Below are positions 22,322-61,170 of a DNA stretch of 64,000 nt, piece by piece. Source of the DNA: Gammaproteobacteria bacterium (lineage in GTDB: Bacteria; Pseudomonadota; Gammaproteobacteria; AKS1); contig JALTKS010000056.1 in the NCBI GenBank assembly GCA_027006175.1, positions 62,001-126,000 on the forward strand. Reading direction: 5' to 3'. The first letter of the stretch is position 1. Every line of letters begins with the position of its first letter. The position numbers and the translations under genes were made by a program. The notes under the pieces are model-generated. The model was not told the DNA's origin, did not search any database, and was given only the letters and a program-made list of their open reading frames with translations.

Positions 22322-22680
22322 CGGGAGTTGGCCAGGCGATCGCCTTCGTGTCCTTGTGACACGGGGGAGGAAAGTCCGGGCTCCATCGGGCAGGGTGCCA
22401 GGTAACGCCTGGGCGGCGCAAGCCGACGGAAAGTGCCGCAGAAAATATACCGCCAGCCGCTGTTTCGGCAGTAGAGGTAAGGGTGAAATGGTGCGGTAAG
22501 AGCGCACCGCGCATTTGGTAACAAATGTGGCAGGGTAAACCCCACTCGGAGCAAGACCAAATAGGGGAACATTAGGCGTGGCCCACGTTGTTCCCGGGTA
22601 GGTTGCTTGAGGTGTGCGGCGACGCACATCCCAGATGAATGGTCGTCCACGACAGAACCCGGCTTATCGGCCAACTCCCA
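22322..22680 (+). ncRNA. rnpB: RNase P RNA (M1 RNA, type A)
   Basis: The catalytic RNA of RNase P, which matures tRNA 5' ends. GAGGAAAGTCCGGGCTCCAT (about 22366-22385) is the conserved P4/J3-4 region, followed by GGGCAGGGTGCCAGGTAACG. The partner strand appears near the 3' end as ACAGAACCCGGCTTATCGGCC. Eleven bases at 22323-22333 pair perfectly with 22669-22679 to form helix P1 and set the ends. A TATACT at 22311-22316 is correctly placed as -10 element. The T-rich CTTTCTTTTT after P1 may aid termination. Antisense reading frames across it are artefacts. Confidence 0.97.
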
Positions 22681-22895
22681 CTTTCTTTTTGAACACTTTC
22701 AATGTGGTATTTCATACATTAAATGCTTAGGCATTATTATTAATGTTCTTTCTAGTTAAAACACATAACATATTGTTTTGTATGGTTTCGTGAAAAACGA
22801 AAATTGTTGTTTTTATGCCATTTTTCCAGCCACCCATTTTTCTCTAAGTGATTGTCCACAAAGAAAGAAATCTACTTTTGAGTGGTTTTCATTGG

Positions 22896-38236: not shown

Positions 38237-39472
38237 ATGTCCAGAAAAACTGAAAAAAATCTGATTGTTGGACTCGATATCGGGACATCGAAAATCGTTG
38301 CGATTGTTGGTGAAATTACCGATGAAAATACCATTGAGATAATTGGTATCGGTTCACATGTATCGCGAGGCCTTAAAAAAGGTGTGGTCGTGAATATTGA
38401 GTCGACTGTGCAATCAATTCAACGCGCAGTTGAAGAAGCTGAGTTGATGGCGGGTTGCCAAATTAACTCTGTTTACACGGGGATAGCAGGTAGTCACATA
38501 CGCAGTATGAATTCGCACGGTATTGTTGCGATTAAAGATAAAGAAGTAACTCCAAATGATGTTGAACGCGTGATTGATGCGGCAAGAGCCGTTGCCATAC
38601 CCGCTGATCAGCGCGTTCTGCATGTACTGCCACAGGAATTTATTATCGATAACCAGGAAGGGATTAAAGAACCTGTTGGTATGTCAGGTGTACGTCTTGA
38701 GGCAAAAGTACATTTAATTAGTGGTGCGATGAGTGCGGCACAAAACATTCTTAAATGCGTACGCCGTTGTGGTCTGGAGGTTGACGATATTATTTTAGAA
38801 CAGCTGGCATCCAGTCATTCTGTTTTAACAGAAGATGAAATGGAGTTAGGTGTATGTCTGGTTGATATTGGTGGTGGCACAACGGATATCGCTGTGTTTA
38901 CGGAAGGTGCGATACGTCATACCGCGGTTATTCCGATTGCAGGCGATCAGGTTACTAATGATATTGCTGTCGCACTACGTACGCCAACACAATATGCAGA
39001 AGAAATAAAAATCAAGTATGCCTGTGCATTAACACAATTAGCAGGTTCAGAAGAAACAATTGAAGTGCCAAGTGTTGGTGATCGTGCACCACGGCGCTTA
39101 ACAAGACAAACGTTAGCAGAAGTAGTTGAACCACGTTATGAAGAATTAATTACATTGGTTCAGGCTGAGTTACGCCGGAGTGGGTTTGAAGATCTTGTTG
39201 CCGCTGGAATTGTTTTAACCGGCGGCACCTCGAAGATGGAAGGTGTTGTTGAGCTGGCTGAAGAAATATTTCACATGCCAGTCCGTTTAGGTGTGCCACA
39301 TAGTGTGACAGGGTTAGTGGATGTTGTGAAAAACCCGATTCACGCCACCGGCGTTGGTTTGTTGTTGTTTGGTCATGAGCAACGTAAGACAGGCAGTGTA
39401 GAAGCATTGTCTGGAAGTAATGTGAATGCGCTATGGCAGCGTATGAAAAGTTGGTTTCAAGGGAATTTTTGA
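38237..39472 (+). CDS. ftsA: Cell division protein FtsA
   Basis: A 411-residue actin-like ATPase. VGLDIGTSKIVAIVGE is the phosphate-1 motif, LVDIGGGTTDIAVFTEGAI phosphate-2, and GIVLTGGTSKMEGVVELAEEIF the adenosine motif. The 1C domain lies between. The C-terminal amphipathic helix ALWQRMKSWFQGNF anchors FtsZ filaments to the membrane. ftsZ follows after 86 bp, with a good ribosome-binding site (GGAGGGG). Confidence 0.98.
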   Translation: MSRKTEKNLIVGLDIGTSKIVAIVGEITDENTIEIIGIGSHVSRGLKKGVVVNIESTVQSIQRAVEEAELMAGCQINSVYTGIAGSHIRSMNSHGIVAIKDKEVTPNDVERVIDAARAVAIPADQRVLHVLPQEFIIDNQEGIKEPVGMSGVRLEAKVHLISGAMSAAQNILKCVRRCGLEVDDIILEQLASSHSVLTEDEMELGVCLVDIGGGTTDIAVFTEGAIRHTAVIPIAGDQVTNDIAVALRTPTQYAEEIKIKYACALTQLAGSEETIEVPSVGDRAPRRLTRQTLAEVVEPRYEELITLVQAELRRSGFEDLVAAGIVLTGGTSKMEGVVELAEEIFHMPVRLGVPHSVTGLVDVVKNPIHATGVGLLLFGHEQRKTGSVEALSGSNVNALWQRMKSWFQGNF

Positions 39473-46238: not shown

Positions 46239-46249
46239 TTTTATTCGTG

Positions 46250-46817
46250 GCACCGTAGCCTGCTGTCAGTCATCAGCTGCTGGCTCAGGGAATCTCACTA
46301 CGTTCGATTCAATTCGCCATCATCTGATGCCTGACATCAGGCTACTCTGAAGTAGGATTAAAATTTACCTAGTTAAGCGCTATCAGGTGAATTATTCCGA
46401 CGCATTGGTGCAGTGCAACGAACCTCTAAGAAGGAATCATTCACCTGATAGCGCCGACTATGCACCGTAGCCTGCTGTCAGTCATCAGCTGCTGGCTCAG
46501 GGAATCTCACTACGTTCGATTCAATTCACCATCATCTGATGACTGACATCATGCTACTCTGAAGTAGTCATTAAGATTTACCTCGCTAAGCGCTATCAAG
46601 TGAAAAATTCCGACGCATTGGTGCAGTGCAACGAACCTCTAAGGAGGAATTATTCACTTGATAGCGCGAACTTGGCACCGTAGCCTGCTGCCAGTCATCA
46701 GCTGCTGGCTCAGGGAATCTCACTACGTTCGATTCGATTCGCCATCATCTGATGCCTGACATCATGCTACTCTGAAGTAGTGATTGAGATTATTAACCTG
46801 ATAGCGCGAACTTCGCA
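46250..46817. repeat. Tandem array of two alternating ~106-bp palindromic modules (A-B-A-B-A-deleted B)
   Basis: The secA-argJ gap holds A copies at 46250-46355, 46462-46567 and 46675-46780 (106 bp each), alternating with B at 46356-46461 and 46568-46674. A truncated B (about 46781-46817) lacks its left arm and loop. Each A can fold into a stem of about 29 bp with a few mismatches around a conserved loop with GGGAATCTCACTACG. Each B has 22-bp arms (46377-46398/46433-46454 and 46590-46611/46646-46667). Between the two B copies the arms differ at a position where both sides changed together (G-C to A-T), and the loop is almost unchanged. No coding frame or transposase is seen. The remaining bases to argJ (46818-46901) are AT-rich, probably its promoter. 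Confidence 0.9.
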
Positions 46818-46901
46818 CAAAATTTTCTAACTACCCTCTAAAAGCTTTGCAGTGATTTCCATTAAATAGTCTATAATCTCCTTTTTATTGAGGACTGAAT
46901 T

Positions 46902-60939: not shown

Positions 60940-61029
60940 AAGCTCAAAAAGTCGGTATGATTAGGTTCATAATATCCTGCTTTGCGTCTTTGTGCCATTT
61001 GCTGGAGAATATGGCTCAATTTCTTCTGG

Positions 61030-61115
61030 TTATTCGTGCTCGGTCTTGTCTTCTCGACGCATTGATGCATCGCAGCGAATCCCTAAGGAGGGAAGACAAG
61101 ACCGGGCGTGAATAA
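61030..61115. repeat. Single palindromic element upstream of sucC, related to the B modules
   Basis: Arms 61030-61053 and 61092-61115 (24 bases each) pair with only three G-U-type mismatches. The 38-base loop begins TCGACGCATTGATGCA and ends CCCTAAGGAGG. That loop aligns with the loops of the B modules at 46399 and 46612 (CGACGCATTGGTGCA...CTCTAAGGAGG), but the arms are unrelated in sequence. It ends 55 bp before sucC. The rest of the 231-bp gap shows no gene. Confidence 0.85.
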
Positions 61116-61170
61116 CGTCAGGGCCAAGTAAGAGTACGATAGTTGTGAATAAATTATTTAAGAGCAAACC

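Follow-up and report, generated by a model that had tools for sequence, protein, structure and literature searches.

The hairpin upstream of sucC is genuine and is a member of a dispersed family, in which a folded apex stays constant while the long arms change in sequence and remain paired. We put at about one half (0.5) the probability that these are REP-like long-stemmed palindromes whose folded apex strand is recognised, which spread as single-stranded DNA with a candidate REP-associated tyrosine transposase (RAYT), and whose arms drift by template switching. The window here is the whole stretch of 64,000 nucleotides that was analysed. Its source genome (G000, 2.47 Mb) was compared with a same-genus MAG (G003, JALTKP01) and with two further related genomes, G001 and G002, the latter complete.

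The sucC-upstream copy occupies positions 61,029 to 61,116 of the forward strand, where a hairpin had been predicted at 61,030 to 61,115. Its left arm of 26 nt (61,029 to 61,054) forms 22 Watson-Crick and four G-T pairs with the right arm (61,091 to 61,116), and this 26-bp stem encloses a 36-nt apex of type 1 (61,055 to 61,090, CGACGCATTGATGCATCGCAGCGAATCCCTAAGGAG), which scores 84.4 bits with R1, a covariance model made from 14 of the copies. Two further type-1 copies, the B modules, lie on the forward strand in the secA-argJ interval, each with a 21-bp stem. B copy 1 has its left arm at 46,377 to 46,397, its apex at 46,398 to 46,433 (88.2 bits) and its right arm at 46,434 to 46,454; B copy 2 has them at 46,590 to 46,610, 46,611 to 46,646 (89.4 bits) and 46,647 to 46,667. 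The sucC and B copies have the loop motifs (A/G)TGCA, CGAA(C/T)C and CTAAG(A/G)AGG in common, and their arm pairs are almost perfectly complementary, both as the original prediction had claimed. RNA folding energies of the window hairpins were 5.4 to 7.8 sd below those of dinucleotide shuffles, and in the copies measured the stems had 16 to 26 bp around an apex of 35 to 36 nt.

The same interval holds three A modules on the reverse strand, at 46,255 to 46,345, 46,467 to 46,557 and 46,680 to 46,770. The first has the core GCGAATTGAATCGAACGTAGTGAGATTCCCTGAGC and the feet GTAG...CTAC, and it matched R1 at 46,259 to 46,341 (45.4 bits, E=1e-8). The A and B modules alternate between secA and argJ, from 46,248 to 46,818, with a tandem period of 213 bp, and a right-arm relic stands at the end. 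This relic (ATTATTAACCTGATAGCGCGAACTTCGCAC, repeat D3, 46,789 to 46,818, forward strand) is alone, with neither apex nor left arm, and is 80-90% identical to the right arms of B copies 1 and 2.

Through the apex pattern and R1, we found 18 copies in G000, about 13 in G003, one divergent copy in G001 and none in the complete genome of G002, with 14 to 15 in the sister species combined; divergent copies may be missed by these model and pattern searches. The flanks of the loop were inverted repeats in 18 of the 18 copies in G000, as expected for a family with self-complementary arms. Paired copies were present on its contigs C1, C25 and C101. When 242 kb of G000, in stretches picked partly because copies lie in them, were searched blindly for hairpins with a long stem and a long loop, 26 came up, and most had the family apex or a related one. 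Among 369 genomes sampled from the class, in a scan which scored few candidates per genome and so may miss weak copies, only one further genome (G146, a distant gammaproteobacterium of another family) carried the hairpin, as a single type-2 copy whose arms had no clear relation to those of other copies. Across 85,000 prokaryote genomes the exact type-1 pattern was matched only by the same-genus MAG. Viral contigs gave no match to the exact apex patterns, and plasmids and phages none by similarity search. The Rfam 15 covariance models at gathering score detected in the window only RNase P (the bacterial class A RNA, at 22,324 to 22,682); the hairpin matched no family, and at lax thresholds its best sub-threshold matches were unrelated families.

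The centre had been described as a loop between variable arms. It is not an open loop but a structured apex with covarying pairs and conserved non-canonical positions. Apex identity among copies was 83-88%, against 45-50% for the arms. There are two apex types, type 1 CGACGMATTGRTGCANNGYANNGAAYCYCTRAGGAG (36 nt) and type 2 CGACGCATTGYGCANNGNANNGNARCCCTAAGGAG (35 nt). Numbered from C1 of the type-1 apex, the pairs 1-36 and 4-33 enclose a tandem G-A (2-35 and 3-34), which is swapped for Watson-Crick pairs in L043 (CTGC/GCAG) and L050 (CGAC/GTCG). The pair 11-26 covaries, being G-C in most copies and A-T in L042, L044, L049, L051 and L076, and the pairs 16-22 and 17-21 covary (GC/GC, GT/AC, AC/GT) and enclose a triloop that is mostly GNA. 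The pair 7-30 is A-T everywhere but in the G001 copy, where it is C-G; positions 6 and 31 switch jointly (C with A, A with G); and the type-2 pair beside the tip, otherwise T-A, is C-G in L078, L082 and L116. Both the GNA triloop and tandem G-A pairs of the sheared kind are known for their stability in DNA. At the shared site L145/L086 the apex is identical at 35 of 37 nt, counted by eye, and such conservation suggests a possible additional use of the apex to the host where sites are shared.

The arms had been said to share no sequence. We found instead that the left arms of 30 copies averaged 48% identity in register, compared with 27% (sd 0.5%) when shuffled, and that the sucC arm is 74% identical to that of the G003 copy L083 (p=0.001). 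One arm type predominates in each species, GCGCTATCAGGTGAATNATTC in G000 and GCGGTCAGTCTTATCTTTC in G003, and in a minority of copies (L043, L048, L052 and L116) the arms show no clear relation. The two unrelated arm sets were seen at first because the window holds only two subfamilies. Judged from these alignments, most arms descend from common ancestors and have diverged while staying paired. At the L043 locus (G000:C25, about 38,950-39,200), two tandem half B hairpins, each a degenerate apex with one arm, stand before the complete copy.

In the 14-copy alignment, double-sided changes occurred in 27 of 32 pairs, which none of 500 shuffles reached, with 125 double-sided cells and very few one-sided ones. 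Three sites are common to G000 and G003: pepP (L040/L079), the convergent L145/L086 site, and a related D hairpin at the pyrE site; the pepP pair is a type-1 versus a type-2 copy and may be neighbouring copies instead of strict orthologues, though the flanks match. Across these sites 16 pairs had changed on both sides with pairing kept, a single one had gone to G-T and one was broken; eight of the 14 changes from one Watson-Crick pair to another had no wobble intermediate (e.g. T-A to A-T). In L080, the arms and apex are inverted relative to the conserved outer flanks TTTAA...AACCAT. When a polymerase switches template between inverted repeats, two products result, homogenised arms and an inverted spacer (PMC8604942), and the paired arm changes and the L080 inversion fit such homogenisation. 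We infer template switching, beyond selection, as the most economical cause of the paired changes; selection alone is disfavoured because more intermediates would remain.

The imperfect arm pairs are strongly asymmetric between strands. Counted on the apex strand over fixed 19-bp arms, 536 pairs were Watson-Crick, one was A-C and 22 were G-T (events not fully independent, some copies being shared by descent), besides nine purine-purine and two pyrimidine-pyrimidine mismatches. A G-T on the apex strand would appear as A-C on a hairpin of the complementary strand. Template switching gives no reason to favour G-T over A-C, and the folded apex strand is therefore under constraint, as RNA or as single-stranded DNA. 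By a tally from simple ORF calls, 10 copies lie sense and eight antisense between co-directional neighbours, 12 between convergent genes and one between divergent genes. The antisense copies are as well formed as the sense ones, pairing quality is equal across orientation classes, and the G-T excess holds whichever way the neighbouring genes run. The quality of the antisense copies speaks for single-stranded DNA over mRNA as the active form.

The matching intervals in the sister genomes were located by concatenated flanking proteins. At the L051 site no arm sequence was found in the sisters, where the interval measures only 41 bp (G003) or 80 bp (G001). Likewise empty were the L054 site in G001 and G003, the L045 and L046 sites wherever a matching interval was found in the sister genomes, and, in G000, the sites of the G003 copies L074, L083, L084 and L087. 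The L055 site in G003 keeps GTGAACAATTC beside GCATAGC, a one-arm sequence which reads best as a deletion remnant. The empty sites lack the whole hairpin; thus the loop did not enter ready-made inverted repeats, and whole hairpins come and go. The lineage-specific copies in the sister species argue for recent spread.

A transposase had been suggested to accompany the element, and G000 does encode a RAYT (NF047646, 158 bits against a cut-off of 80), whose nearest solved chain is TnpA_REP 4er8 (E=9e-35). It is also present in G003 (92% identical) and G001 (82%), and all three genomes carry the hairpin. An orthologue is absent from G002, which is likewise free of the hairpin and has other Y1 proteins; this co-occurrence across four related genomes is weak evidence and could reflect ancestry. 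In G146 the query used found no RAYT despite the one hairpin copy. No copy of the hairpin lies within 1.5 kb of the RAYT genes. TnpA_REP acts strand-specifically on folded single-stranded DNA, through bulges, mismatches or loops (PMC8266576), and the asymmetry of G-T over A-C is consistent with such recognition by the candidate enzyme.

Further hairpins of these genomes are built on a similar plan. The A modules of the window are members of one superfamily with the B modules, although they lie on the other strand, and the alignment of the A core to the B apex beat all 2000 shuffles. A narrow pattern search gave about 12 A modules in G000 and none in G001-G003; the count was made by pattern because the A/X/Y/D superfamily alignment is too gapped for a covariance model. 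Several A-type hairpins stand at contig ends of G000 (C22, C78, C111, C118 and C43); the assembly is probably interrupted by this repeat, whose count is then too low. The A modules carry GTAG, but in paired form. X, Y and D hairpins have the same apex plan as the B hairpins. The X-type hairpins L156 (G000:C1:6677) and L159 (G000:C25:45321) have a common outer arm GGGTGTTC and a common core, with a middle arm that differs in sequence between them and is fully complementary in each.

A separate repeat, the C module (...CATAATGAAGC...TTCTATGAGT... with GAACC...GGTTCAGGGCA), is distinct from both B and A hairpins. It was found inside the apex of B hairpins in G003, at L087 (G003:C61:23465-23593) and in the upstream copy of L079 (G003:C246, about 50-190), and inside the apex of A-type hairpins in G000 (L162, L163, L169 and L170). 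Apparently it entered hairpin tips several times independently, as if the tips were its target. REPs of the CGTC type (TGTCATTGCGAG...GCAATCC) occupy the same intergenic intervals as B hairpins of sister species, at L096 (G003:C34), L074, L080, L084 and L079, and at L095, L137 and L146 (G001). Homology of the apex to these REPs was considered as well; the two are alike by eye, mostly non-significantly so against shuffles, and the idea was dropped.

As a mechanism, we propose that the recognised part would be the folded apex of one strand, with its tandem G-A, its symmetric internal loop with co-varying positions and its GNA triloop, and that the element would most likely spread as a single-stranded DNA hairpin, as is thought for REPs. 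The RAYT is possibly the enzyme of this mobilisation and would be the first candidate. The arms would need complementarity only: DNA polymerase template switching would copy one arm onto the other, so that a change in one arm becomes paired, and the same switching could invert the apex between the arms. The original prediction, in which the loop is recognised and the stem maintained at each locus, agrees with the constant apex, the strand-specific constraint and the arms that stay complementary while drifting; its other part, insertion into inverted repeats, was not upheld. A stricter proposal is that recognition, by a dedicated factor from the host or a transposase, is confined to the folded apex of one strand, the stem being free in sequence and correcting itself through template switching. 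This we advance tentatively, with clearly less confidence; if true, copies would gain locus-specific stems without losing activity, and these genomic palindromes would be a class with its own design, mobile or regulatory.

A rather unlikely alternative, to be taken seriously nonetheless, is a structured RNA family, in which transcription of the apex strand yields an RNA whose apex binds a protein or functions in 3' UTRs, and the covariation of the arms is ordinary RNA coevolution. Covariation in both stem and apex, the strong preference for G-T over A-C on one strand and the many copies sense to the upstream gene would all suit it, and many REPs have been argued to be transcribed, their G-T stem pairs being taken as pointing to RNA (PMC3733652). 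Against it, no Rfam family is reached at gathering score, and eight of the 18 copies between co-directional genes run antisense to the genes on either side, yet are no worse in form. At the shared sites wobble or mismatched intermediates are rare compared with paired changes (2 versus 16), most of the paired changes having no wobble path. GNA triloops and tandem G-A pairs are no less typical of DNA hairpins than of RNA. The copies could also be inert relics of an old repeat, with palindromes kept perfect solely through template switching and no present recognition. Template switching alone does cover the homogenised arms and the inverted L080 apex (PMC8604942), but it predicts equal numbers of G-T and A-C where 22 to 1 were observed, and it offers no reason for an apex conserved above arms and flanks, or covarying. 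The lineage-specific copies in the sisters speak against relics too, and we disfavour this explanation as improbable.

The 36-nt loop could be a mobile insert that lands at the centre of inverted repeats or terminators already in place, which would account for a constant centre in a variable palindromic surround and for some arms being T-rich outside and terminator-like (L044); REP dimers inside palindromes, described for Anabaena and Halothiobacillus (PMC3733652), are a precedent. However, the element-free sites (L051, L054, L045, L046, L074 and L084) have neither an inverted repeat nor an arm, which refutes insertion into ready-made repeats at the sites tested. The arms are also related across loci and, at shared sites, inherited with gradual change, against the further claim that an inserting loop makes new inverted repeats; we regard a mobile loop as very improbable. 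Intrinsic transcription terminators with a common loop are the least credible of the alternatives. The family is enriched between convergent genes, and the stem foot of L044 has an A-tract and a T-tract, but most copies lack a T-run after the stem, and separate ordinary terminators (GCCCG...CGGGC-T runs) stand in the same intervals at the L054 and L080 sites.

The family shows how a stem drifts without losing its fold. Palindromic repeats are usually tracked by their stem sequence; here the stem is fast-changing and the apex constant, so sequence-only searches will miss copies. It also offers a natural test of inverted-repeat upkeep, as the ratio of double to single changes, the missing wobble paths and the apex inversion are measurable across species. 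If the RAYT binds the apex, this would be a recognition mode for TnpA_REP without a GTAG guide.

Several known systems resemble this hairpin in part. Integron attC sites (cited in PMC8266576) likewise work as one folded strand, in which some unpaired features are conserved and other parts vary. Their boxes are conserved at the ends, whereas this hairpin keeps its centre constant between variable ends, and identity with attC was dropped on this anatomy. The inverted repeats homogenised by template switching (PMC8604942) have the same paired changes without intermediates and the same inverted spacer; the present hairpins differ as a dispersed family with a conserved, strand-specific spacer, for which we infer the process from sequences. 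TnpA_REP with REPs of the E. coli type is alike in that a RAYT of this type is present and in having a hairpin specific to one strand, whose mismatches may be where recognition occurs; it differs in the GTAG guide, which the present family lacks. In the REPtron the RAYT is usually flanked by its REPs, while copies of this family flank no RAYT gene.

The closest likeness is to REP elements themselves, which are likewise palindromes between genes, number in the tens and stand alone, in pairs or in BIME-like clusters, with a RAYT in the genome. REPs are placed mostly in convergent or unidirectional intervals (PMC3733652), as the present hairpins are. The copy number here is moderate, and the stems have 16-26 bp, compared with mostly 6-13 bp in REPs, whose whole element has 20-40 bp. 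The unpaired GTAG/CGTC foot of REPs is absent; the feet of recent subfamilies are TTTAA/AACCAT in G003 and TAA/GAAC in G000. The family works as REPs do and has their setting, but because both the foot and the short stem are lacking, we file it as a REP-like variant and not as REP. The original contrast with REPs, as conserved stem and variable loop, was right about the constant part, which is the stem in REPs and a structured apex of 35-36 nt here, and too sharp about the stems, for those of REPs also vary, with alternative complementary residues and G-T pairs (PMC3733652), a variation which the two have in common.
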